Shown here one piece after another: positions 1 to 22,293 of a stretch of 64,000 bases of DNA (its first letter is position 1; each line of letters begins with the position of its first letter). Location: assembly GCF_000166335.1 (NCBI RefSeq), contig NC_014657.1, positions 1,656,501-1,720,500 of the forward strand. The letters run 5' to 3'. The DNA is from Caldicellulosiruptor owensensis OL (GTDB lineage: Bacteria > Bacillota > Thermoanaerobacteria > Caldicellulosiruptorales > Caldicellulosiruptoraceae). Made by a program: the position numbers and the translations under genes. The notes under the pieces are model-generated. The model did not search any database, had not been told where the DNA came from, and saw only the letters and a list, made by a program, of their open reading frames with translations.

Positions 1-3000
1 GGAATTAAATTTAATAAGTTTTGTCAAAATTGTAGTTTCCCTATACCTTCTTTTGCAAATTTTTGTCCTAACTGTGGCAGCTACATAACAAAATCAAGCG
101 AATATTTTAGAATGGAAGAACTCAAGAAAGTAGCTGTGATGTTTGCCGACGTCTCCGGCTTTACAAAATTTTCTGAAAAGTTATCACCTGACGAAGTTAG
201 AAAGGTGATAAATGAATTTTTTGAGTTTATTTTAAGACCCGTTTACAACTTAAACGGAACAGTAGATAAATTTATAGGTGATTGCGCCCTTATTCTTTTT
301 GGACTAAAAAGTACTCAAATGGATGCTCCACTGAGAAGCGTTCAGTGTGCACTGGAAATGCTAAAGCTCTCAAAAGAATTTTCAAAAACAAAGAATGTTG
401 AGTTATCCCTTTCAATTGGAATAAACTATGGACTTGTTGCAGTGGGTAAAATTGGTGGACTTTTTGAAAAAGACTATACTGTTATGGGTGATGTTGTAAA
501 CACCGCTCAGCGTCTTCAAACAGCAGCACCCCCAGATACTATTTATGTTTCCGAAAGCATTTACAGAGAAACCTACGAAAACATAGAGTATATTGGCCCT
601 ATCGAATTGAATATCAAAAACAAATCACAAATGGTGAGGTGTTATATACCCAAAAATATTAACAAACTAATCGATTACAATAAAGTTGTAGAAACATTAA
701 CAGCTAAATATACAACTAATGTTATAAATAGTATAGTTAACAGAAATTCGGATTTTTTAGTAATGGTTTGTCCTGATGGTTGTGGAAAACGATACGTTTT
801 TCAAAACATAATCTCTCAGTTAGAAAGGAGCAATCTGAGATACTATTTTATAAGTTTACTTAATAATAATTTTTCAAGACCGTTTTACCTGTTATCTCTG
901 CTAATCCTAAAAATCTTGAACGTCAATTTTGAAGATTCTGTGATTTTGAAGAAGAACAGACTTGTATCTTTTTTAGAGTACCTTTTCAAAGAAGATCATA
1001 AAATGATCGAAAAATGTTTCAACTATATTTCTCTTGTTCTTCAACTAGATTTGAATGAAGACTTTAAACAGTTTCTCTCTTATATGACCCAAGAAGACAT
1101 AGAATTCGAAATTTATGAGGCTATTTCATCCTTCCTCAAAAAAGTTTTCGAGTTAGAATTTGCAACAGTGATAATTGACAACATAAATTTTGCAGACAAA
1201 GAATCGTTTGATTTTATTCTCGATTTTTTATCAAAACAACTGCAAAATAAGCCGTTTTTTATCTTCTCGTCAAGCTCAGAAATACACAAGGTTCCAAAAG
1301 AGTTACATCTTAAAATACAAAAACTATCAAATGAAGAAATAAAAACTGCTGTGGAAATTCAATTCAACGCAAAAGACGTTGAAGAGGAGTCTTTAAACGT
1401 GTTTATGAACATCTCTGAAGGAAAATTAGACTATTTCATAGAAATGTTAAAATGGATAGATACAAATAAACTTTTTTCACTTTCAAACGGCATTTTTAAA
1501 ATCAATCTTTCTCAGCAAAATATTGAAAGCATTAGAAGAAACATTATACTTGATAAGCTTTCAAACACTGAGGATGATGTATTAGAATTCTTAAAAATTG
1601 CAGCTGTGTATGGCTACAGATTTAGCAGCAAGGTTGTTTTGAATATTCTTCAGCCTACAATTGAACATTCTACTCTGATTAGCCAAGCGCAAAAATTAAA
1701 TTTAATAAGGTTCATTGACACAATCTACAACTCAAATTTCAGCGATAAAATCTATGAATTTTGTGAACCAGAAATTGTAAAAATTCTTCTTGATTTTATC
1801 CCTCAGCAAACCAAAAAAATGCTCCACCAGAAGATTGCTACCACAATTGAAAAAATGATTTCTCAGGAAGATTTGACCATTTACTACGAAACCCTATATT
1901 ATCATTTCAAGGAAGCAGGGAAAGTTATAAAAGCTGCAAATTATCTTTTTGAGCTGGCAATGCAATACAAAAAGATTCAGCTTGGCAAGTTTGCCGTGGA
2001 ATGGCTCTATAAATTGCTTGATGAGATTAAAGCCGAAAATTCCCTTGATAGCTTTTCTATCTTTGTTTCTACTTTAGAGCAATTGGCAGCTTTAGAAAAA
2101 TCTTTTGGTAACTATGAAAAAGCTTTACAACATTATAGTAAACTTCTCCAGTTTGCTAAAACTGATGAAGAAAAGTTTTTACTTGAAACTGAGATATGTG
2201 AGTGTTTCATCCTTCAAAATAACTTCAAAAAAGCTGAAGATATTTTGAATGAACTCCAAAAAAAGTTATTGCCAAATAACTTTGCAAGAACAAAAATCTT
2301 GTATCTGCAATGTCTTTATAAAAGCTATACAGGAAGTTCTGATCTGCCCATGTTGGTAAGTCAGCTTGAGGCTGTACTGAAAGAAAGTAATAACTTTGAA
2401 GATTTAGCCCAAATTCTAAACATAGTTTCTTACTCCCTTTACACCTTTACCTCTGAGACCAAAAAGGTTATTCTCTATCTTAAAAAAGCTTTAAACTATG
2501 CGAATAAGTCTAAAAACTTGATCTTGAAAGCCAAAATTCTGGTAAACCTTGGCATCTTAAATTATGAAAATGGCAATCCTTCAGAGGCATTGAAATTTTT
2601 AACTGGTGCTTTTGAACTTGCCAAAGTTTTGTCCAACCGTCACCTGCAGTTGATTCTGTTGAATAATATTGGAATTATCTATTATGAAAAAGGACTTTTA
2701 AAAAAGGCTTTAGAATATTTTTCTGAAGCTTTTTCGTATGCCCACGAGTGGAAATTAATATACGAAGAATGTATAACGCTCCAAAATATTGCTGAACTAT
2801 ATCTTGAAAAAGGAAATATTATCGAAAGTTATAACTTCTTTTCACAGAGCTTTGATTTGGCAAATAAATTCAATTTCATATCAGAAAAAGCTCTGTCATT
2901 GATAGGAATGGCAAAAGCAATGCTTGAAAAATCTAATCTATCAGGTGCAGAAGAATATCTGAATGAAGCCTTAAACGCCATGTCAGAGAACAAAGAAAAC

Positions 3001-3411
3001 AGGGTTGAAGTGGAATATTTTTTAGCAAAAACTAAACTGCATCTTCTTCAAAATGACATTGAGCAAGCTGAAATGGTTATAGAACAGGCAATGAAAATGA
3101 CTGAACAACTGAAAAACCCTCTAATCCGTATCAAAACATTTAGAATGTATTCACAGGTGCTCAAGCATAAAAAAGAATTTAAAAAGGCATTGGAAACTCT
3201 TAAAAGGTGTGAGCAACTGGCAAGTCAAACAGGTTCATTTTTAGAGCTTGCAAAGACATATTACGAAATAGCAAATATCCATGCACTTTTGGAAAATAAA
3301 AAAGAATTTGAAGAGAGTATAAAATTAGCTTCCCTGTGGACTGAGAAAATAGATGAAGAATGTTCTTTAAAATTTTTGATTATGTCTCTTTTAAATAAAG
3401 TAAGAGGCTAA
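1..3411 (+). CDS. Zinc-ribbon / class III nucleotidyl cyclase / ATPase-like / TPR protein (5' end outside window)
   Basis: The reading frame is open to the left edge: the 37 codons before the ATG at 112 encode a zinc ribbon (FCQNC ... FCPNCG), so the true start lies upstream. From that ATG, residues ~5-180 form a class III adenylate/guanylate cyclase domain. It has both metal Asp (D13 in FADVSGF, D57 in KFIGD), the base-selecting K53 and D127, and the transition-state N130/R134. An AAA/NACHT-like region follows (~215-560). Its P-loop is poor: CPDGCGKR lacks the leading Gly and the trailing Ser/Thr, and the Walker B reads VIIDNINFAD. Residues ~640-1090 are TPR repeats. The family is a one-component signalling scaffold found in many bacteria. 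The cyclase is probably active. ATP hydrolysis by the middle domain is doubtful, and the ligand is unknown. Confidence 0.85.
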   Translation, partial: GIKFNKFCQNCSFPIPSFANFCPNCGSYITKSSEYFRMEELKKVAVMFADVSGFTKFSEKLSPDEVRKVINEFFEFILRPVYNLNGTVDKFIGDCALILFGLKSTQMDAPLRSVQCALEMLKLSKEFSKTKNVELSLSIGINYGLVAVGKIGGLFEKDYTVMGDVVNTAQRLQTAAPPDTIYVSESIYRETYENIEYIGPIELNIKNKSQMVRCYIPKNINKLIDYNKVVETLTAKYTTNVINSIVNRNSDFLVMVCPDGCGKRYVFQNIISQLERSNLRYYFISLLNNNFSRPFYLLSLLILKILNVNFEDSVILKKNRLVSFLEYLFKEDHKMIEKCFNYISLVLQLDLNEDFKQFLSYMTQEDIEFEIYEAISSFLKKVFELEFATVIIDNINFADKESFDFILDFLSKQLQNKPFFIFSSSSEIHKVPKELHLKIQKLSNEEIKTAVEIQFNAKDVEEESLNVFMNISEGKLDYFIEMLKWIDTNKLFSLSNGIFKINLSQQNIESIRRNIILDKLSNTEDDVLEFLKIAAVYGYRFSSKVVLNILQPTIEHSTLISQAQKLNLIRFIDTIYNSNFSDKIYEFCEPEIVKILLDFIPQQTKKMLHQKIATTIEKMISQEDLTIYYETLYYHFKEAGKVIKAANYLFELAMQYKKIQLGKFAVEWLYKLLDEIKAENSLDSFSIFVSTLEQLAALEKSFGNYEKALQHYSKLLQFAKTDEEKFLLETEICECFILQNNFKKAEDILNELQKKLLPNNFARTKILYLQCLYKSYTGSSDLPMLVSQLEAVLKESNNFEDLAQILNIVSYSLYTFTSETKKVILYLKKALNYANKSKNLILKAKILVNLGILNYENGNPSEALKFLTGAFELAKVLSNRHLQLILLNNIGIIYYEKGLLKKALEYFSEAFSYAHEWKLIYEECITLQNIAELYLEKGNIIESYNFFSQSFDLANKFNFISEKALSLIGMAKAMLEKSNLSGAEEYLNEALNAMSENKENRVEVEYFLAKTKLHLLQNDIEQAEMVIEQAMKMTEQLKNPLIRIKTFRMYSQVLKHKKEFKKALETLKRCEQLASQTGSFLELAKTYYEIANIHALLENKKEFEESIKLASLWTEKIDEECSLKFLIMSLLNKVRG

Positions 3412-3446: not shown

Positions 3447-5450
3447 TTATCTCAATGTAACCTTTTTAACAACCACATCATTAATTTTCTTTTCAAATGC
3501 AGTTGTATATGTTTTACCACCACTTATAATGTCAATGCGTGAGATATTAAAGTTAATTTTTGTTGCTGTTAAATTAGGCTTTAATTTGAATGTTACAGGT
3601 TTTGACAAAACCCTCAAACCATTTGATATTCTTGTTGAGTTATCAACAATAAGCTGCAGTGGAAATGTCACATTTGTATTTAATGTGTCAGTTGGACTCA
3701 TTTCAACATAAATCTTTATTTTTGCAGCAGAATCATAACTGAAAAGACCCATATCATCAATTTTAAGCGACAAATTAGCACTTGAATTATCCGAAATTAT
3801 CTTTTTGGTGATAGAAAAGCTTTTAATCATATTAGTTGCATCAATAACAAAGAAATTAATTGGTGTTAAATTCATTGAATTTGCAGTGCTATTTATGCTA
3901 TATGACAGTACAGGTGTAAATGATATCGTACCTTCACGCAAGAATGTAACCTTGTAATCAATAGTCAAACTTGTCGGTGTTGGGCCTGAATCAACTGCAT
4001 AATTGAACGATGGATTTGTTGTGGTAACTTTTTGTAGAGTAACGTAAGAATTATTAATCGAAAGTGTAAAATTGTTAATAATAGTAGCAACATCAAGCGA
4101 TTTTCCATACGCACTTATCGTAAGCTTTGCATTATAAGGCGTGCTAGGCACAAATATGTTACCACTTCCTATTACTTGGAATGTAGCACTAATTCCAGGC
4201 TGTCTTACAAATTCCACCTGGCCAAGATTAACTTCCAAACTTCCTGTGCTTTCACCATTTACTGTGTCATACCTTCTAAATGTTAATGTAGCCTTCCCAA
4301 GATTATATATTCCTTCTGTGTTTGAAGTTATCTTAAACGAAATCTCCTGGGCAGATGGAGTTCCCCCACCATTCTCAAAGATGACAGGGTTAAATGTTCC
4401 TATTAATTTGCTATTTTCAATTTTCCATCCTGCTGGCATGGAAGTGACTGTTAGCCCTGATGGAATAGGGTATTCAACTGTAAGATTGTCATATGTTACT
4501 GCTAAATTGATTATTTTGAATATATCCTGCAAAATGGAATTCAAAGCATTTGTACTTGAAATATAATATGACTTACCATTTGCAGTGCTTGCCATCAACT
4601 CAATAAAAGTCTTATCTACGTCAGCACCAGTTGTATCAACACCTACAACAAAAAGTTTTGTTCCACTTTGAGAAAGAGATTGCACTGCAGAAAGTGTTTC
4701 TGATTTGGTAGTATTATTCGGCTGCAAACCTGGACCATCTACTAAAGGATATCCATTATGCGTTCCGTTTAAATAAAACGTAGGCATACCGTCAGTAATA
4801 AATATTACATATTTGTCATTACCTGATGGAGAAGCATTAAGTAAATTTTTTGCCTTGTTTAAAGCAGCTTCCATATTTGTTCCGCCAGAAGCATTCATAT
4901 TGTCAATCAAGTTTTTAGCAGAATTTATAGCTGAAGTATTTGTTAAATCTAAAAGGCTGCTTGTGCAAGTATTGGGCAATGAATACGGTCCATATATGGT
5001 TGACGAATTTCCCTTTTGCCAACTTCCGTTTTGCAGATAAAATCCTTTAACGTAAAAATTTGAATTATCATTTACAAAAGTATCAAAATCTACAATGCCA
5101 AGTTTATCACCACTTTTTGCTGAGTTTTTAAAACTGTCAATAAGATTTTTGGCAGCATTCTTTGCAGCAGTCATCTTACTGCTTGCGCTCATAGAACCTG
5201 AAGAGTCAATGACAAGGACAACAGAAACAGGCGACCTTGAAACATTAATTGACCCTGCGGGTGTAAGTTTGAGCTTTACTTCAATGTCGTTTCCAATATA
5301 GCTCTTACTTTTTACAGGTCCTCCACTTAAGCTGATACTTACCGAAGATGTATCTCCAGCTTTTGCCTTTGGTGAAAAGTAAGCCAAGCCCCCTATTACT
5401 GTCATTACAATCAATAAAATACTAAACCACGACAAAAATCTTCTTTTCAC
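3447..5450 (-). CDS. Secreted von Willebrand factor A domain protein, candidate pilus-tip adhesin
   Basis: The start is GTG with a strong AGGAGGG site. An N-terminal signal peptide (hydrophobic ~10-25, AKA-type cleavage near residue 31) is followed by a vWA domain at ~77-315. It carries a complete MIDAS: D82-S84-S86 in IDSSGSM, T191 in GGTN and D220 in FITDG. The remaining ~350 residues look like beta-sandwich repeats. No LPXTG motif or C-terminal anchor is visible. It lies directly downstream of the type IV pilus genes but has its own promoter. In other pilus systems PilY1-like or vWA minor subunits sit at the tip and bind surfaces or metals; that role here is inference from position and MIDAS. 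A free secreted adhesin is the alternative. Confidence 0.8.
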   Translation of the reverse strand: MKRRFLSWFSILLIVMTVIGGLAYFSPKAKAGDTSSVSISLSGGPVKSKSYIGNDIEVKLKLTPAGSINVSRSPVSVVLVIDSSGSMSASSKMTAAKNAAKNLIDSFKNSAKSGDKLGIVDFDTFVNDNSNFYVKGFYLQNGSWQKGNSSTIYGPYSLPNTCTSSLLDLTNTSAINSAKNLIDNMNASGGTNMEAALNKAKNLLNASPSGNDKYVIFITDGMPTFYLNGTHNGYPLVDGPGLQPNNTTKSETLSAVQSLSQSGTKLFVVGVDTTGADVDKTFIELMASTANGKSYYISSTNALNSILQDIFKIINLAVTYDNLTVEYPIPSGLTVTSMPAGWKIENSKLIGTFNPVIFENGGGTPSAQEISFKITSNTEGIYNLGKATLTFRRYDTVNGESTGSLEVNLGQVEFVRQPGISATFQVIGSGNIFVPSTPYNAKLTISAYGKSLDVATIINNFTLSINNSYVTLQKVTTTNPSFNYAVDSGPTPTSLTIDYKVTFLREGTISFTPVLSYSINSTANSMNLTPINFFVIDATNMIKSFSITKKIISDNSSANLSLKIDDMGLFSYDSAAKIKIYVEMSPTDTLNTNVTFPLQLIVDNSTRISNGLRVLSKPVTFKLKPNLTATKINFNISRIDIISGGKTYTTAFEKKINDVVVKKVTLR

Positions 5451-5565: not shown

Positions 5566-8254
5566 CCTGTCTTTTACTTTTTATTTTAATATTTGTTTTT
5601 ACTGTGGTCTCATAAAATGTGGTAACAAACGGTATTTCTATGATGTCATTGGTATCAATCCCTTTTATGAAGAAATTATAAAGCTGTCCTAACCTGTCTG
5701 AGATGCTGCTAAAGTTTGCATAATTAAAATAATACATAAGCTGACTTGATACACCTCGACTATATTCAATTTTCAGATTACCATTTCCAGCTACTACTAT
5801 ATCACCTCCTGCTATTATATTGCCTTTAAGAGTTTTTTCTGTTGTACTACTGTTTTTCAGAACAATGCTGCCTTTCGAAACAATCAAAACATTCTCTATA
5901 TTTCCAAGCGGAACCCCGTTCCAGCTGGGTAGACCAAAGTCAATTTCTTCTACATCACTTTTGCTAATCACTATCAGGTTCTTATCATCATTGATTACAA
6001 GTCTGTCAGATGAAAGCTGGTCAAAATCGACAAAATCTGTCAAATCAAACTTATCTCTGGTTGTATCTAACAATCCCTTGTCAACAAGATTGAGCTCTTT
6101 GAAAAACTGCTCCACAGTTGGGTCAATCACGTTATCAATAACTGCCGCCCTCAAAGATTCAGAAGATGAAATTGTAACACCTAAGTTTACAAATTCACCT
6201 GAACCTCCAGGTACAGTCCCAATGGTAGAATTAATTGTACTTTCGTTCAAAATGTTAAGGACTCTCCTTGCCAAATAAAGCTTTCCATTTGCATTTAGAA
6301 AATAATGAAAGTAACTTGTGTCATAGGGATTGGATGGATTAAAGTTTACGCTTCCTCCACCAACACTTATATTTGACGCTCCCATATTATATGGCGTATC
6401 AAAATCATCAGGGTCTTTTACATGTGCTGTAAGGTAATGCAGAACAAAGTTTATTGCTCTCTCTACATTTGAAATTGTATTAGTCCCCACAGTGTCAACA
6501 TCCATATCATATAGTTTTATATCAACTTCCTCGATTGGACTTACTTTAACTTTAAATGGCTTAAAATAATCCGGTGCAAACAAATCTGCAGTCGTAAAAC
6601 TACCAATACTTCCATTTAATCCAAGTGTATTCAGAAGGTCGGTCAAGTCAGCCGAAGGAAGATTAAAATATTGATAGATAGTAAAATTTGGTACTAAAGA
6701 AGAACTTTCAGGCATTCTAAAAAGCTTATCTTTGCCATGCTCATCAATTCTGTGAATTTCATCTACATATGCAACACCCATAAGTACAATGTTTCTACCT
6801 ATTGATAATTTTGCTGTATCTTCGTTAATAACTATGGAAGAGCTGCTATTATAATTGTATGGAGTATCTCCTGTACCAAGTCCAATCAGCGAACCTGAGA
6901 TATTGATATTGCTGTTCTGTGCGTACATTGATACGTTATCCATTATATATGCATTTTTGTTTATAGTTATCGCTGAACTGTCAGCAGTATTTTCTGTAAC
7001 AATGCTATGGCAATATACCTCATCTGTGACTGTAACTTGGGAATTTGGCGCACATGTTTTTATAAATCCACCGTAAAGTGCATATTTATCTCTCAAACCA
7101 TTTATTGTTGGAGGAAGATTAGGATTAGAATCAGTATAGCCTACAAAAACCGGTGCATTTTCAATTCTTATATTTCCACTTTTTATGCCTGAACTTCCTA
7201 TAATGCTCTCTATTCTACTCTTTACTGCAGAATCAATGGGATTTACCCTTGCACTTGACGCCAAATTATCAAGCTGTGTCTGGGTGATACCAGCTAAAAT
7301 TCCACCAAAGTACTCAGAAGGTTTTGAATACCTTACATCATTTGCTGTTCCCCTTACATATACCTTGCCACCTTTTATACTAAATAAATTCGAATCGTTA
7401 ATAACAATGAGATTTCTTCCAGCAAAAAGAGTATAGTCAAGTATGTGATTAAAACTCCTTTTTATAGTCCTTGTTGTGAAATTTAAATCACTACTTTTGT
7501 AAGGAAAAATGCTAAAATCTACTCTCAAAACTCTTTTGGTCTTTTCTTTTAAAAGATTGACAACGACTTCCATTTTTACATCAATTGGGTTTTCTATCTC
7601 AGAGCTTGACATATGCAGGTTCATATCTACAGCTGGATTAAATTTTATTTCAATGTCGACATCAGGATTGTTAAAATCAACCATTTTCATAAAAGAATAT
7701 AGGTCATTAGAAGTTCCTCTCCAATTGTCAATCGTATAAGTTACACCTGATACAGTAAATTCAATTGCTGGTCTTTCGCTTGGTAAGCCCGATGCTGTAA
7801 AAAAATTGTTCATGTATTCTTTGAACTTTTCTAAGAATTTTTCTTTGACCTTCTTTTGATAATCATGATTGATTGCAGCAACTGCATTGTCATAGTCGGT
7901 TTTTGATATCATTCCATTCATATACTGAACATAATACTGGTTTTCCCTTTCCTGATAGTCTCTTAGAATGTCTGCAATATCAGGATTTTGGGTATTGAGA
8001 ACGCCACTTTCTATAAAAACATAATTGTCAGCCATTTTTCGTGCTTTGTCTGCAACCATATCAAGATAGTAAACCATTCTTTCAAAAGCACTCTCAGCGT
8101 CGTAATATGCTCTGTTCTTTGCATAGTACCCCTTGCTAATTTTGAGTGACGACATCGCAGCTTCAATCAATGCAACCGACATCACAAACATCACTGCTAT
8201 GAAAATTATCGTAAGAACCAGAGTCGAACCTTTATGCTTACTTTTAATTCCCAT
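5552..8254 (-). CDS. Very large PilX-like type IV pilus assembly protein
   Basis: The N-terminus has a short basic leader KSKHKG followed by STLVLTI and a long hydrophobic helix, then AYYDAESAFERM; this is the pattern of PilX-type minor prepilins. Position +5 after the presumed cleavage Gly is Leu, not the usual Glu, as occurs in some PilX/GspK-like proteins. At 900 residues it is several times longer than ordinary PilX. Most of the length is a beta-rich, polar region with recurring segments such as SSSIVINEDTAKLSIGRN, suggesting a beta-helix or adhesin-like ectodomain. It is the last gene of the main operon, 1 nt after the preceding prepilin gene. The role is probably as a pilus-priming or surface-exposed minor subunit; the ectodomain function is unknown. 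Confidence 0.7.
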   Translation of the reverse strand: MGIKSKHKGSTLVLTIIFIAVMFVMSVALIEAAMSSLKISKGYYAKNRAYYDAESAFERMVYYLDMVADKARKMADNYVFIESGVLNTQNPDIADILRDYQERENQYYVQYMNGMISKTDYDNAVAAINHDYQKKVKEKFLEKFKEYMNNFFTASGLPSERPAIEFTVSGVTYTIDNWRGTSNDLYSFMKMVDFNNPDVDIEIKFNPAVDMNLHMSSSEIENPIDVKMEVVVNLLKEKTKRVLRVDFSIFPYKSSDLNFTTRTIKRSFNHILDYTLFAGRNLIVINDSNLFSIKGGKVYVRGTANDVRYSKPSEYFGGILAGITQTQLDNLASSARVNPIDSAVKSRIESIIGSSGIKSGNIRIENAPVFVGYTDSNPNLPPTINGLRDKYALYGGFIKTCAPNSQVTVTDEVYCHSIVTENTADSSAITINKNAYIMDNVSMYAQNSNINISGSLIGLGTGDTPYNYNSSSSIVINEDTAKLSIGRNIVLMGVAYVDEIHRIDEHGKDKLFRMPESSSLVPNFTIYQYFNLPSADLTDLLNTLGLNGSIGSFTTADLFAPDYFKPFKVKVSPIEEVDIKLYDMDVDTVGTNTISNVERAINFVLHYLTAHVKDPDDFDTPYNMGASNISVGGGSVNFNPSNPYDTSYFHYFLNANGKLYLARRVLNILNESTINSTIGTVPGGSGEFVNLGVTISSSESLRAAVIDNVIDPTVEQFFKELNLVDKGLLDTTRDKFDLTDFVDFDQLSSDRLVINDDKNLIVISKSDVEEIDFGLPSWNGVPLGNIENVLIVSKGSIVLKNSSTTEKTLKGNIIAGGDIVVAGNGNLKIEYSRGVSSQLMYYFNYANFSSISDRLGQLYNFFIKGIDTNDIIEIPFVTTFYETTVKTNIKIKSKRQVVSD

Positions 8255-10343: not shown

Positions 10344-10883
10344 TCACTTCCTTGCTATATCTGCAGATATTGTTGACATTTTCGAATTCTCATCTCCAGT
10401 TACACTGCTAAAACTAACGTTTGTAAAGTAACCACTTGTCTGAAGGTTGTAGACAAACTGTGTAACTGTTTCAAGCTTATCGGCTCTTACGGTACACGTT
10501 ACTTTTTCAGTTGAAAGGTTCAAACTCTCAAATTTTAGATTTGACGGAGTTAAAGATTCAAGCTTGTCTAAAATCTCTAAAAATTTTATATGTCCACTTG
10601 ATATATATTCAAGCAAAGCTTTTTTTTGAGTATACAATATTTTCTTTTCGACAAGCTTCTGTGCTTCATCCATCTGCTGCTGTTTTATTGTTATCTCATT
10701 ATTTAATCTTCTAATATCATTGTTCGTAGTCATTATTCTGGTTAAAAAAATCGACCCAATTAAAGCAAACACACAGATTTCTAATATGAGCAACAAAAAA
10801 TAAATTCTTAATGTTGCATCTTTCTTCTTTATCCCTCTTTCATAAGCCAATAACAGGTTTATATCTTTAAGATTTTTTGCCAT
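10344..10883 (-). CDS. pilN: PilN-like pilus assembly protein
   Basis: It begins MAKNLKDINLLLAYERGIKK, with the INLL segment that PilN uses to contact PilM. One membrane helix (~27-48), a coiled coil (~52-90) and a small C-terminal alpha/beta domain follow. The length of 179 residues is normal. It lies 35 bp after pilM and 6 bp before pilO. PilN anchors the cytoplasmic PilM ring to the membrane PilN/PilO complex. Confidence 0.85.
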   Translation of the reverse strand: MAKNLKDINLLLAYERGIKKKDATLRIYFLLLILEICVFALIGSIFLTRIMTTNNDIRRLNNEITIKQQQMDEAQKLVEKKILYTQKKALLEYISSGHIKFLEILDKLESLTPSNLKFESLNLSTEKVTCTVRADKLETVTQFVYNLQTSGYFTNVSFSSVTGDENSKMSTISADIARK

Positions 10884-10918
10884 TATTACCTCTCCTTAGA
10901 ATTTTAAAAACTAAGAAA

Positions 10919-11884
10919 CTAAATAAGTCCACTTATAGTTGTGGAATAATTACAAACTTCACTCTTTGTGAGTATTATCTTCTTATTGATTGACTGCAGT
11001 TCGGTTAACAAAATTATCTCAGCATTTATCTTTGTTCGCAAAACATCACTTATATCTATATGCTGGCAAACCTCACCCATAAGATATACTTTTGATAGAC
11101 TCTTGCTATCCTGTTCTCTACTTTTATAAAACTCATAGAATTTTGAAATGTTTTCAACAATCTCATTAACAGTATAGGTATAGAAATATTCTATGTAAGC
11201 TTCAGTACCTTCTTCTTCACTAAACATTCTTTCTAAATCATAATTAGGAAACGTTTTGGAAAGAACAATTTCATCTTCGTTGAGTATCACAACAGTTATA
11301 TAAGATCTTACAATGTTTACAATCATTATAAGCTCTTTATCCTCATCTTTTCTGACCCTTCTTTCTAAAGCTACAAGTTTAGATATTGTATTTGGCTCAA
11401 TATCAATTTTCTTAACCTTTAAACCAAGCCTTTTCGTAACTGTTACTATATCTTCGACAAAGCTTTTAGGAAGAGCCACGAGCAAAATTTTTTGTTTTTT
11501 TGTTTTTCCTTCATTAAACACCTTCAGCTGTTTATAATCAATAACATAATTTTCAATGCTTGTCGGAAAGTACTGTTTTGCTTCAAATGTAATAAGATTA
11601 AACGTCTTGTCTTCATTGAGGTACGGCACTACTAATTCTCTGATAATCATGTTAGAAATACCCGACAAAACAAAAGTTATATTATTTTTGGGAAAATTAT
11701 TCTTCAAAAAGATATTGCCCAGTGTTTCATAAAAAAGATTTGGTTCAAGTTTCATGTCATTTATGATGACATTATCTTTTAGCTGCTCTTCAGCAAATTT
11801 ATTTATATGAATACTTCCTGAAAAATTTCCTTCAGCAACCTTTATGTAGTTTTTCCCAAGTTCTATAGCTACTTTTGTGCTCAT
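10919..11884 (-). CDS. pilM: PilM, actin-like pilus assembly ATPase
   Basis: The N-terminus VAIELGKNYIKVAEG is the phosphate-1 type start of the PilM/FtsA actin-like fold. Later segments DYKQLKV and KIDIEPNTISKL fit the family. At 321 residues it is slightly short of typical PilM (~350). It is cytoplasmic with no membrane segment and precedes pilN. It binds PilN's N-terminal INLL motif and links the assembly ATPases to the membrane complex. Confidence 0.85.
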   Translation of the reverse strand: MSTKVAIELGKNYIKVAEGNFSGSIHINKFAEEQLKDNVIINDMKLEPNLFYETLGNIFLKNNFPKNNITFVLSGISNMIIRELVVPYLNEDKTFNLITFEAKQYFPTSIENYVIDYKQLKVFNEGKTKKQKILLVALPKSFVEDIVTVTKRLGLKVKKIDIEPNTISKLVALERRVRKDEDKELIMIVNIVRSYITVVILNEDEIVLSKTFPNYDLERMFSEEEGTEAYIEYFYTYTVNEIVENISKFYEFYKSREQDSKSLSKVYLMGEVCQHIDISDVLRTKINAEIILLTELQSINKKIILTKSEVCNYSTTISGLI

Positions 11885-13044: not shown

Positions 13045-13317
13045 TTAATCATGTTTTGGATTGTTTTTTACAATGAAAGCAGCTGCTGCAATTGCAGCTA
13101 TGATATCAACATAAAACTGATCCTGAAGTTCACTCATTTTTTCGAAAAGTTCTCCTTCTTTTGTTACAAAATACCTCGGGGGTAATCTGTTAAGAGCAAG
13201 TGCCAGAATATCAAGCTTGCATTTTGGACATTTGCAAACATCAATGTTTTCAAGAACTTTATCAATCATGTTCCCTACTGCTTCTTCCATATAGTTTCTT
13301 ATTGTGTACACCATCAT
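13045..13317 (-). CDS. comFB: ComFB family protein (candidate cyclic-dinucleotide receptor)
   Basis: The 90-residue protein has the ComFB signature: an N-terminal helix NYMEEAV, Cys28-X-Cys30-X2-Cys33, and the ALNRLPPRY segment. It is cytoplasmic. In Bacillus subtilis comFB lies in the late competence comF operon. In cyanobacteria ComFB-type proteins have been reported to bind c-di-AMP/c-di-GMP and to affect pili and competence. Here it sits inside the pilus operon between pilD and the minor prepilins, so a role in regulating the pilus by a second messenger is plausible. Binding in this protein is inference. Confidence 0.8.
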   Translation of the reverse strand: MMVYTIRNYMEEAVGNMIDKVLENIDVCKCPKCKLDILALALNRLPPRYFVTKEGELFEKMSELQDQFYVDIIAAIAAAAFIVKNNPKHD

Positions 13318-17410: not shown

Positions 17411-19108
17411 TCATTCAAGTGAAAATGTAACTCGTAAAAACTCCTCCACTGTTGTTGTCCCGTTCAAAACTCGTTCTTTGCAAGCTTCTCTCAACGTCTT
17501 CATTCCCTCTTTTATCGCAAGCTGTTTTATTTCATCGCTGCTTACATCTTTTTTCACAATTAACCTTTTTAGCTGGTTTGTAACAATCATTATTTCATAT
17601 ATTCCAGACCTGCCGTAATATCCTTTATTGTTGCAAAGTGCACAACCTCTTCCTCTGTATAATTTTACATGGTAATTTTCTTCTATGTCAAGAGCTCTCA
17701 GTTCTGTTTCCGTGGGAGTGTACTCTTCCTTGCAGTATGGACAAATCTTGCGAATAAGTCTTTGAGATATAACACCGACAAGTGATGAGCTTATCAAAAA
17801 GTTTTCAATACCCATATCAACAAGTCTTGTCACAGCACTTGGTGCATCGTTTGTGTGAATTGTAGAAAGCACAAGATGCCCTGTTATAGCAGCTCGAACT
17901 GCCATGTCAGCCGTCTCTTTGTCTCGAATCTCGCCTACCATTATGATGTCAGGGTCCTGTCTCAAGATAGAACGCAGTGCTGCTGCAAATGTGAGCCCTG
18001 CTTTCGGATTTACCTCAACCTGATTTATACCATATATGGTACTCTCAACAGGATCTTCTACTGTTATGATGTTCTTGGCACCTGTGTTAAGCTCATTAAG
18101 TATAGTATATAAGGTGGTAGTTTTTCCGCTTCCAGTTGGACCGCACACAAGAATTATCCCGTGTGGCGCTGATATAATTCTATTATACTTTTCCAAATCA
18201 TCTTCTGTAAAACCAAGTTCTGTTTTGGATTTAATAAATGCTCCCTTATCTGCAATTCTTATAACTATCTTCTCACCGTAAACTGTTGGAAGGGAAGAAA
18301 TTCTCATGTCATATACCTTGTCAGCAAACAAAAAAGTGGTTCTGCCATCCTGCGGCACTCTTTTTTCGGCAATGTCCATATTGCCTATAACTTTTATCCT
18401 TGCAACAAGAGATGGTAACATCTCAATTTCAAGCTGAAGAATGTCATAAAGTATACCATCTATTCTAAACCTCACTCTTATTTCATTTTCAAACGGTTCA
18501 ATGTGAATGTCGCTTGCTCGCGATGTTATCGCCTGTTCAAATATGGAGTTTACAAGCTTGACAACAGGACCTTCTGTGTCATCTTCAGAACTTATCTGCA
18601 TTCTCGTCGTCTGAACCCTTTTTTGCGCACCACCCTCTTTTTTGAGCTCTTCAATTGCCTTTAGAGCTTCTTGTTTTCCGTAAAACTTTTCTATCTGTCT
18701 TTTTATCTCAGAAGCTTTGGCAATAACAGGCTGAACATTTTTGCCAGAAAAAATTGCAACATCTTCTATTGCAAAAATGTTCAGCGGGTCTGCCATTGCA
18801 ACAACAAGCTTGTCATCTTTTAATTGAATAGGAATGAGAGTATGTCTTCTTGCTATGCTTTCAGAAACTAAATTTATAACATCCGGATCAATTACATACT
18901 GGTCAAGTTTAACATGAGGAATTCCCAGCTGGAACTCCAACACCTCTAAAATTTCATCTTCTGTGACATAGCCTTTTTCAACAAGGATCTCCCCTATTTT
19001 TTTGCCTGTTTTTTTTTGAATTTGAAGTGCCTCTTCTAACTGCTGTCTTGTGATGATTCCTGCCTCTAATAAAAGCTCACCTATTTTTCTCTTTTCATTT
19101 ACCGGCAA
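17411..19108 (-). CDS. pilB: PilB extension ATPase
   Basis: The start is TTG with GAGGGTGA 6 nt upstream. Residues ~1-150 are the MshEN/GSPII_E N-terminal domain (GELLLEAGIITRQQLEEAL), which in some PilB proteins binds c-di-GMP. The ATPase core has CGPTGSGKTTT, Walker B IIMVGEIRD, the His box TGHLVLSTIHT and a tetracysteine zinc site (CPYC ... CALC). Length 565 is normal. It powers pilin polymerisation. Whether the MshEN domain binds nucleotide here is untested. Confidence 0.95.
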   Translation of the reverse strand: MPVNEKRKIGELLLEAGIITRQQLEEALQIQKKTGKKIGEILVEKGYVTEDEILEVLEFQLGIPHVKLDQYVIDPDVINLVSESIARRHTLIPIQLKDDKLVVAMADPLNIFAIEDVAIFSGKNVQPVIAKASEIKRQIEKFYGKQEALKAIEELKKEGGAQKRVQTTRMQISSEDDTEGPVVKLVNSIFEQAITSRASDIHIEPFENEIRVRFRIDGILYDILQLEIEMLPSLVARIKVIGNMDIAEKRVPQDGRTTFLFADKVYDMRISSLPTVYGEKIVIRIADKGAFIKSKTELGFTEDDLEKYNRIISAPHGIILVCGPTGSGKTTTLYTILNELNTGAKNIITVEDPVESTIYGINQVEVNPKAGLTFAAALRSILRQDPDIIMVGEIRDKETADMAVRAAITGHLVLSTIHTNDAPSAVTRLVDMGIENFLISSSLVGVISQRLIRKICPYCKEEYTPTETELRALDIEENYHVKLYRGRGCALCNNKGYYGRSGIYEIMIVTNQLKRLIVKKDVSSDEIKQLAIKEGMKTLREACKERVLNGTTTVEEFLRVTFSLE

Positions 19109-19158: not shown

Positions 19159-22100
19159 TTAGCCTGCAACCTCGCCAAGCATCTCTTTCTCCTCAAAAAA
19201 TTCTATCTTCATTTCCTCTTGTTTCCTCTCCAATTGGTATTTAATACCAGTCATAGTAATCAAATATATTCTCCACCCAGATTCTATCTTTTCTATGCTG
19301 ATGAATTTTACAGTCTTTTCACTTTTTATAGCAGGAATAGTATTAGAAAAATCACCTGCATAAGAAGGTACATCTAATATTATTATACCATTTTCCTCAA
19401 AAATCCTGTAGGAAATATCATCTGCATCTATATACTTTATAAAAACACCACTATCATCCACTTCAATTTTTGAAGTTGTCTTTTTAAATTTTAAAAGAAG
19501 TTGTGATAAGTTGGACTCAATTTCCCACTGTGCGCGGTTAAAGCTTACTCTTATGCTCAGATTTTCCTCAGCAGGTATAAACTCTATGAGCTTTACTATT
19601 CCGTTCTCGTAATACTGAGAAGTCAACCCAATCTGGTCATATACAATTTTTGACAGCTTTACTTCTAATACACCTTTTCCAATTTGCTCAATCTCAGGCT
19701 CTTTAAACAGCTCGTCGTCAATGCCAAGTTTTAAATACGCTTCCGTTTCGCTGTTTACAACAACTTCACACGTTGTTAGTTCAGGCAGTTTTTTCATTAT
19801 AATTTTAACGGTTCTTTCTTCATCAGAACTTACAATAGCAATTGCCTTTTTATTGGTTTTTATCACAATTCCATAACTTCCATTAGACTTATAAACCTGA
19901 TAGCTTTTGATAAGGCTATCTTCAACTTTGAACAATCCAGTGGGAATAAAAATACCTTTTTTCTTAATCTCTAATTCAAATTGATTGTTCTCTCTGACCT
20001 CCTTGAAACTAAAATCATTTTTATTAAGTCCATTGAGCCGGATAAAATTTTCAGAAACCAGAATTTCTATTGCATCCAGAACAAACTCTAAATCAAAGCC
20101 GTTCGCATGATCGTTCACAATAAAATCATCCGTATACGAATAGATCTCTATTACTACTTTATCATTTTCCATTTCTTTGAAAATAATTTTTTCTATACAA
20201 CAACTCTCAAACTCAACAGGTAAGGTGGATATGTTTTCTAATTGAGCATCAAAAATTTCTATCCTAATAACTCCATCTTCTTTTCTAATTTCTTTTTCTA
20301 ACTTTCCTTCTCCTCTTATATGCAAGATAGCTTTATTATCTCTCTCTTCATATTCATAAAAGTTAATTTTATTTTGAGCTTTCAAAGGTGTCAGGTAAAC
20401 ATCTGTAGATACCTTATCTTTAGCCAAAAGAGAATAAAAACTACATTTTTTCTTAAGATAAATTAACCCTTCATACCCATTTTTAACTTTTTCAACTTCT
20501 ACCTTTTCAATAAACTGATTGTCTTCTACCATAGAATCCTTTATTAGATTTACAAATCTATTGAGTATACTGAATCTTAATTTTTTGTCTTCAACAAGTT
20601 CAAGTTCCACTTCAGATGGTTTTATATTCTGAAAAATCAATCTTGTCTGTAAATTATCGTAAAGCAAAAACGCTCTTTGTGCTCTGCATAAAATAAGGAT
20701 TCTGCCATCTTCTTTTGATACACTCACTTTATTTACTGGAGTAGATATAATCATGTAGCTCTTTGCTTTGGCATAATCTTTTTTAAACTCTATCCATTCA
20801 ATAAAGCCATCTTCATATTCATATCGCTGGTTCAGAAGTTCATCTGGCACCTCTAAATCCATAAAATATACATATACCTTATCATTTTCTTTATCGTGTT
20901 CCATTAGAAGCTGTGCATCCCCAGACGACGAAATTATTTCGACTACTGACATATCCTCCTTAGTAAATACATTCCATCTTTTAATTACATTTGCTTCTTT
21001 TAATCTGATTCCAAACGAACTTCTTCCTTCAATCTTTTCGTATTCTAAGAATTTTGAGCTCTTAACCAGCACTACATAACCTTTAAAAGTCTTAAGTACT
21101 TCAATAGTTTCAACCAAACCATCATTTATTTCCATTATTTCCTCTTTTATCACTACGTCTTTGTTCTGGATATTTATTTTTAAGTTGTTTTCAGCTCTTT
21201 CTACCTCTATGGCTCTTGAAGATATTCCTTCTATCAGCAAAAGTTTTGTCAAAGGGTTGTAGGATAGATGAGCAGTTTCTTTTTGCAATAATATCTCAAT
21301 TATCCTGTCATTTTCTTGTATGTTGAACTTTCTTATATCAGTTTTAATTGCAATGTAAACATTGCCTGAAATCTCTTCTACTTTTATCTCTCTTAAACCC
21401 TCGTCAGAAACCTTTATGGTCTCTTTAACATTCGGTTCAACTTTACAATCTTCCACGTTGAGTATAAAACCATTGCCAATCTTCATCTTACCAAAATTGT
21501 ATGTCACAGGTTCATTGAAATAAAGGGACAAAACATATCCTTCGTCTTTTTCGAATACCCTTATATCTTCAAGTCTCGCTTTTCTATTTTCTTCCTGTAA
21601 ATCTGACTTAAAATCAATATGTATCTCTTCGTTTTCAATTTTTCTATTTTCTTCCACATTTATGTTCTCATAAAATGACTCATTTTTCGTGTTTTTTTCT
21701 ACTGATTCTTCTGCTGGTAATTTCTCTTCTAAATTACTTATTTCAAAGTCAGGTGTTATAGTTCCTTCTAAATCTGGTTCTTCTGAAGGTTCTTCAGAGT
21801 TAACTATTTGAAGTCCTATAACCTCTTTTTCTTTCTTTTCACTCTTGTTTTCTTCATCTCTCTTAGGTTCTATGCTTTCACAAACACTTTTTAATACACT
21901 CTCTATTTTCTCTTTTGAGAACGGTTTTGTGATATAATTTACTGCACCTTCTCTAAGAGCCTGCATTACAGCTTCCTGCCCTGAAAGTGCAGAGACCATT
22001 ATTATTTGAACAGTTGGATTTACTTTCTTTATCTCTCTTAAAACATCAATGCCACTCATGTCTGGAAGGGTTATATCGAGTGTGATTATATCCGGCTTTA

Positions 22101-22230
22101 CCTTTGCAGATTGTTCTATTGCCTCTTTGCCTGTTGAGGCTTCTGCTACAACTTTGTATCCAAGCTCAGTTAAAATCCCTTTTAACACCTTTCTTATAAA
22201 GACAGCATCGTCAACTATCATAATTTTCAT
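19159..22230 (-). CDS. Response-regulator receiver fused to a long AMIN-like beta-repeat region
   Basis: Residues 1-120 are a complete CheY-type receiver: D7/D8, phospho-acceptor D52 (ITLDITLPD), S80 and K102. An acidic, low-complexity linker (~125-200) follows. The remaining ~820 residues are repeating beta units of ~100-120 residues with patterns like GYVLSLYFNEPVTYNFGKM, VYIAIKTDIRKFNIQENDR and GYVVLVKSSKFLEYEKI. These resemble AMIN domains, which are normally exported and found in PilQ secretins and amidases. No signal peptide or membrane helix is visible, so the protein should be cytoplasmic. It is the first gene of the pilus operon, 50 bp before pilB. It may be a phosphorylation-controlled scaffold for the pilus machine. 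The AMIN comparison is by eye and needs profile confirmation. Confidence 0.75.
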   Translation of the reverse strand: MKIMIVDDAVFIRKVLKGILTELGYKVVAEASTGKEAIEQSAKVKPDIITLDITLPDMSGIDVLREIKKVNPTVQIIMVSALSGQEAVMQALREGAVNYITKPFSKEKIESVLKSVCESIEPKRDEENKSEKKEKEVIGLQIVNSEEPSEEPDLEGTITPDFEISNLEEKLPAEESVEKNTKNESFYENINVEENRKIENEEIHIDFKSDLQEENRKARLEDIRVFEKDEGYVLSLYFNEPVTYNFGKMKIGNGFILNVEDCKVEPNVKETIKVSDEGLREIKVEEISGNVYIAIKTDIRKFNIQENDRIIEILLQKETAHLSYNPLTKLLLIEGISSRAIEVERAENNLKINIQNKDVVIKEEIMEINDGLVETIEVLKTFKGYVVLVKSSKFLEYEKIEGRSSFGIRLKEANVIKRWNVFTKEDMSVVEIISSSGDAQLLMEHDKENDKVYVYFMDLEVPDELLNQRYEYEDGFIEWIEFKKDYAKAKSYMIISTPVNKVSVSKEDGRILILCRAQRAFLLYDNLQTRLIFQNIKPSEVELELVEDKKLRFSILNRFVNLIKDSMVEDNQFIEKVEVEKVKNGYEGLIYLKKKCSFYSLLAKDKVSTDVYLTPLKAQNKINFYEYEERDNKAILHIRGEGKLEKEIRKEDGVIRIEIFDAQLENISTLPVEFESCCIEKIIFKEMENDKVVIEIYSYTDDFIVNDHANGFDLEFVLDAIEILVSENFIRLNGLNKNDFSFKEVRENNQFELEIKKKGIFIPTGLFKVEDSLIKSYQVYKSNGSYGIVIKTNKKAIAIVSSDEERTVKIIMKKLPELTTCEVVVNSETEAYLKLGIDDELFKEPEIEQIGKGVLEVKLSKIVYDQIGLTSQYYENGIVKLIEFIPAEENLSIRVSFNRAQWEIESNLSQLLLKFKKTTSKIEVDDSGVFIKYIDADDISYRIFEENGIIILDVPSYAGDFSNTIPAIKSEKTVKFISIEKIESGWRIYLITMTGIKYQLERKQEEMKIEFFEEKEMLGEVAG

Positions 22231-22265: not shown

Positions 22266-22293
22266 ATTATACCACGAAATAACATGTCGTAAA
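22266..22293 (-). promoter_or_regulatory. Promoter of the type IV pilus operon
   Basis: Minus-strand TTTACG (22288-22293), 16-bp spacer and TATAAT (22266-22271) lie ~36 bp before the response-regulator start. No intrinsic terminator is visible between the pilus genes down to 5552, so this is the main promoter candidate for the whole cluster. Confidence 0.6.

Follow-up and report, generated by a model that had tools for sequence, protein, structure and literature searches.

A response regulator with an AMIN-fold tail that heads a type IV pilus operon of Caldicellulosiruptor, and its possible role as a pilus scaffold

What could a receiver domain do when it is joined to about 800 residues of repeats and placed ahead of the genes for a type IV pilus? 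The question is raised by a gene of the thermophile Caldicellulosiruptor owensensis OL, found in a stretch of 64,000 nucleotides (hereafter the window, which means the whole stretch). The original prediction, made from the sequence, described it as a complete CheY receiver with no export signal, fused to AMIN-like repeats and heading a pilus operon in a region that has no secretin gene. The gene and its immediate surroundings are:

19159-22230, minus strand: the whole REC-AMIN-fold gene, an open reading frame of 1023 codons (1023 amino acids) with its ATG at 22230, heading the pil operon
22266-22293, minus strand: promoter-like site with an extended -10 (TTTACG ... TGGTATAAT), directly 5' of the REC-AMIN-fold gene
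17411-19108, minus strand: pilB (MshEN and T2SSE domains), adjoining the REC-AMIN-fold gene on its 3' side across a 50-bp gap

The gene does stand first, followed by pilB-pilT-pilC-pilins-pilD-comFB-pilM-pilN-pilO, and the plus strand across 19159-22230 has stops all along. The promoter-like site at 22293-22266 has 10 of 12 matches and a TG preceding the -10, in a region whose total of promoter-like sites is not above chance; its extended -10 is conserved upstream of the gene in four congeneric genomes. A genome-wide search found no secretin gene, in agreement with the original prediction. By the end of the operon, the window also encodes a TPR-containing class III nucleotide cyclase of 1099 amino acids (112-3411, plus strand) and an exported von Willebrand A protein (3447-5450, minus strand), a possible variable adhesin that occurs in genome G005 and is missing from the remaining pil regions that were compared.

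The N-terminal part of the protein comprises two segments:

21892-22224, minus strand: CheY-type receiver, residues 3-113, with D7, D8, D52, S80 and K102
21580-21876, minus strand: acidic disordered linker, residues 119-217

The receiver matches PF00072 at 4e-29 in a Pfam scan (101 bits against a curated cut-off of 30.2) and has the active-site residues D7/D8, D52, S80 and K102, so that the domain is complete as claimed. D7, D8, D52 and K102 are invariant across 12 orthologues, as are 45 of the 118 receiver columns. Judged by its sequence, the protein is a genuine response regulator. In the structure model, linker residues 122-215 have a pLDDT below 50; Asp and Glu make up 31% of the linker, the length of which varies from 86 to 133 amino acids within the genus and is 5 amino acids in the sister genus.

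Self-comparison of the family profile revealed a period of about 200 amino acids in the tail of about 800, in four copies, with HH probabilities up to 97.6%. The pairings were 271-360 with 469-561, 222-316 with 624-717, 323-400 with 722-801, and 826-916 with 629-717 (94-98%). Each repeat consists of an A module followed by a B module, both roughly 100 residues long, giving eight modules:

21280-21573, minus strand: AMIN-fold module A1, residues 220-317; hhalign 94.4%, structure Z 13.1 to the AmiC AMIN domain
20983-21279, minus strand: AMIN-like module B1, residues 318-416; from repeat self-comparison, 23% to AMIN when taken singly
20680-20982, minus strand: module A2, residues 417-517; A1 homologue (418-516 against 222-316, 96.4%), 2.1% to AMIN when taken singly
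20368-20679, minus strand: module B2, residues 518-621; conservation peak of the tail
20074-20367, minus strand: module A3, residues 622-719; hhalign to AMIN 93.3%, best shuffle 0.8%
19759-20073, minus strand: module B3, residues 720-824; B1 homologue (323-400 against 722-801, 97.3%)
19477-19758, minus strand: module A4, residues 825-918; A3 homologue (826-916 against 629-717, 94.2%)
19183-19476, minus strand: module B4, residues 919-1016; matching strand pattern in the model, weakest by sequence

Taken singly, modules A2, A4, B2 and B4 have no significant AMIN match by hhalign, and they were assigned through homology to A1/A3 and B1/B3 together with the strand pattern. Because conservation peaks in B2 (16 invariant columns and a mean identity of 41%, versus 20-34% in other parts of the tail), this module is a candidate contact site.

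Whether the tail is AMIN was a guess from sequence in the original prediction. The Pfam AMIN family (PF11741) has no match above cut-off in the window protein itself and matches 4 of the 12 family members at E up to 1, with the sister-genus orthologue reaching 23.2 bits in two stretches (cut-off 20.5; 7e-5). At 1e-7, a profile of the tail matches exported AMIN proteins (AMIN amidases) from further families of the same phylum. Compared by hhalign with 30 independently assembled AMIN domains of exported proteins, with 15 column-shuffled controls, A1 reached 94.4% (best shuffle 3.2%) and the pooled A modules 94.8%. AlphaFold2 modelled the A1B1 unit with a pLDDT of 92.6, and module A of this model matches the AMIN domains of AmiC (Z 13.1, 2.2 Å over 99 residues) and PilQ (Z 12.4 and 11.6), with the first unrelated fold at Z 7.3; this structural match covers module A, and module B is assigned from the pooled profile only (76.6%). 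The structure models show an all-beta tail. For the full-length model Foldseek listed receivers only, and the two-module model was used for the tail search; a full-protein search of genome contigs likewise returned receiver matches only and was uninformative for the tail. Small heat-shock proteins, which have a similar beta sandwich, were rejected as the fold of the tail at Z 7.3, far below AMIN. Pfam matches to p29 (0.067), SapB_1 and cREC_REC were disregarded as below cut-off, and no PATAN domain was matched in Pfam scans of the window protein and family members. On the basis of the profile matches, the A1B1 model, the matches to exported AMIN proteins and the sister-genus orthologue, the tail is of the AMIN fold and AMIN by descent. 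Profile search and structure thus both bear out the guessed similarity, and the repeats are real; the arrangement has to be redrawn, with the modules in four A/B pairs and not in a simple row of AMIN domains.

The fold has been kept, but the residues that mark it in exported proteins have not. Positions P37, R39, V41, D43, R68 and R78 of the AMIN alignment are 97-100% conserved in the 30 exported domains, and none of the A modules (four in each of eight orthologues) retains as a whole the signature that these positions form (P-x-R-x-V-x-D ... R ... R-x-V). No signal peptide or transmembrane segment is apparent from the sequence, as the original prediction had held: the maximum Kyte-Doolittle value over 19 residues is 1.28, versus 2.2-3.1 in exported controls. 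The composition is cytoplasmic-like as well, with E+K at 0.23 and charged minus polar at +0.14, whereas charged minus polar runs from -0.18 to +0.04 in exported proteins encoded in this window and genome. We infer that the protein is cytoplasmic. Because the signature is lost, the tail looks like a repurposed fold and not a wall-binding domain; with the fold kept and its conserved surface gone, the simplest interpretation is that it binds protein in the cytoplasm, and its ligand is probably protein rather than peptidoglycan. It differs from functional AMIN domains in two respects, the signature residues and the location, and is better kept apart from ordinary AMIN proteins.

The pilus linkage first seen in one genome recurs across the genus. 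Of 12 congeneric genomes, 11 (the present one included) have an orthologue, as does one sister-genus genome, and in all 11 congeneric carriers the gene lies directly upstream of pilB, the spacing ranging from about 50 bp to an overlap of 4 bp (in genome G007). In the congeneric genome without the gene (G006), aroE is joined straight to pilB. Because this pilB groups with sister-genus pilB (tree support 100/99) while the aroE side is still congeneric, the simplest history would be a replacement of the pil operon by one of sister-genus type, with the regulator lost alongside. The sister-genus-type operon sits between conserved congeneric neighbours (L122 7500-10065; G006:C1:932391-934058).

The linkage does not extend to the sister genus: there the gene is missing from the pil operon, and the orthologue lies between galE and rho (L093 1180-4611; L124 6869-10300). 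This orthologue of 1143 amino acids consists of receiver, AMIN and a C-terminal Amidase_3 domain (2.9e-35); none of the 11 congeneric copies has that last domain. In this one sequence, the presumed zinc ligands are kept and the presumed catalytic Glu is replaced by Gln (LLLQIGHGTN), a lead that the domain may bind rather than catalyse. A leaderless 186-amino-acid Amidase_3 protein (1e-63) is encoded nearby, directly after rho (L124 12218-12778). Between the clades, the receiver is about 60% identical, the tail about 30% and PilB 74%; the divergence of PilN and PilO comes close to that of the tail. A search of the class and 398 genomes of the phylum for REC-AMIN fusions elsewhere gave three matches outside the genus, all of them short hits to AMIN-type exported proteins and none a REC fusion, and the spread so far is one family.

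We hypothesize, and give the idea an even chance of being right, that the protein serves at the base of the type IV pilus as a cytoplasmic scaffold under phosphorylation control, binding a pilus component through its AMIN-fold arm. D52 of the receiver would be phosphorylated by a CheA-type (or other) histidine kinase; phosphorylation would alter how the eight-module arm, descended from the fold that PilQ and exported amidases have in their AMIN domains, engages PilB, PilC or PilM; and this engagement at the cytoplasmic face of the pilus would adjust pilus assembly or placement. We infer the cytoplasmic location, the phosphorylation, the kinase, the partner and the effect on the pilus; in favour of the scaffold stand the conserved receiver site, the adjacency to pilB, the leading position in the operon behind a promoter-like site, the loss together with the replaced operon, the AMIN fold, the lost signature, the cytoplasmic-like composition, the presence of possible CheA-type kinases and the PixG precedent described below. 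Against it, the sister-genus copy outside the pil operon means that the pilus linkage is not universal, and the tail diverges fast, although PilN and PilO do so almost equally. No partner kinase gene is adjacent to the REC-AMIN-fold gene; four Hpt-bearing (CheA-type) loci in the genome are candidates, but each cluster inspected has its own receiver proteins. One CheA-like locus is split (L197 2641-13143), with separate Hpt (10700-11686) and HATPase (6284-7924) proteins. Two HATPase_c matches with an in-frame TAA (G000:C1:232002-232322 and G000:C1:2356233-2356487) are possible histidine kinase pseudogenes.

There is a precedent for such a switch. The Synechocystis response regulator PixG, like others of the PATAN type, combines a CheY-type receiver with a non-DNA-binding domain, PATAN; once phosphorylated, it binds PilC and PilB1 and controls the activity of the pilus (PMC12288463). 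A phospho-switchable hub, as the original prediction suggested, is consistent with this precedent and with the operon linkage, and by analogy the REC-AMIN-fold protein would most likely work like PixG at the pilus machine. PATAN is a different domain, whereas here eight AMIN-fold modules lie C-terminal to the receiver, and it is by analogy that they would bind pilus proteins. PilG and PilH of the Pseudomonas Pil-Chp system are also CheY-like switches that act on type IV pilus motors; they are small receivers without an AMIN-fold arm. The pil operon also encodes a 90-amino-acid ComFB protein (PF10719, 2e-25; 13045-13317, minus strand), of a family reported as receptors of cyclic dinucleotides (c-di-AMP and c-di-GMP) that control pili in cyanobacteria (PMC12313861). 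With this protein and an MshEN-bearing PilB in the same operon, several signals probably meet there.

Other roles have to be weighed against a pilus scaffold. The protein could be an operon neighbour only, a buffer of phosphorylated CheY or a signalling hub for other chemosensory arrays that has no action on the pilus and is in the pil operon for historical reasons. The four CheA-type loci, the sister-genus copy away from pil genes and the kinship of the receiver (among the own-genome receivers compared, the nearest is a flagellar-type CheY, at 46%) all suit this role; the tight linkage to pilB in all 11 congeneric carriers, with an overlap in one, and the loss along with the replaced operon make it unlikely, and a pure buffer would not need an 800-residue tail with a strongly conserved B2. 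We regard as quite unlikely a cytoplasmic cell-wall sensor, in which the AMIN arm would bind peptidoglycan precursors or recycled muropeptides and couple the state of the wall to the receiver or the pilus, the Amidase_3-like sister-genus form being ancestral. The AMIN domains of PilQ and AmiC do bind peptidoglycan (PMC10653833, PMC12403147), and the altered sister-genus Amidase_3 would fit a binding-only domain; yet the near-invariant AMIN residues are not kept as a set in the A modules, and no congeneric copy has the amidase domain.

Most response regulators act on transcription, and this gene heads the pil operon, as a transcriptional or RNA-level regulator of that operon with an unrecognised output domain might. 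We consider this very unlikely for an all-beta AMIN-fold tail rich in Glu and Lys behind an acidic linker, in which no DNA- or RNA-binding family exceeds its cut-off, the match to p29 falling far below. Scarcely credible is export by a non-classical route to a function in the wall: elsewhere, AMIN domains are reported to lie outside the cytoplasm (PMC12403147), but the N-terminal receiver, the missing signal or membrane segment, the cytoplasmic-like composition and the lost signature all oppose it.

The relation of the putative scaffold to known AMIN proteins is one of shared fold and altered setting. Module A has the fold of the PilQ and AmiC domains of PF11741 (Z 11.6-13.1), with detectable profile homology; those domains are exported, bind peptidoglycan and have the signature, whereas the tail is cytoplasmic-like and has lost it. 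An exported AMIN-Amidase_3 protein of the same genome (L001, 709 amino acids) has AMIN modules too, and shares Amidase_3 with the sister-genus orthologue, but it has a signal peptide-like start, an intact catalytic Glu and no receiver. No receiver-AMIN (or CheY-AMIN) fusion was described in the open literature searched, which does not prove absence. It is possible, at slightly short of an even chance, that a wall-binding fold has moved into the cytoplasm in eight copies, been stripped of its conserved surface residues and come under phospho-control to regulate the type IV pilus from inside; such an output would form a class not yet described among response regulators, and the system would be the first to have the AMIN fold in the cytoplasm.

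An AMIN domain is taken as a sign that a protein is extracytoplasmic and linked to peptidoglycan. Here the same fold is apparently intracellular and forms the arm through which a CheY-type switch gives its output, a warning that an AMIN match by itself is no proof of export. The finding points to a way in which a bacterium that lacks a secretin could control its pilus machine from within the cytoplasm, and offers a testable candidate for a regulator of surface attachment in Caldicellulosiruptor.
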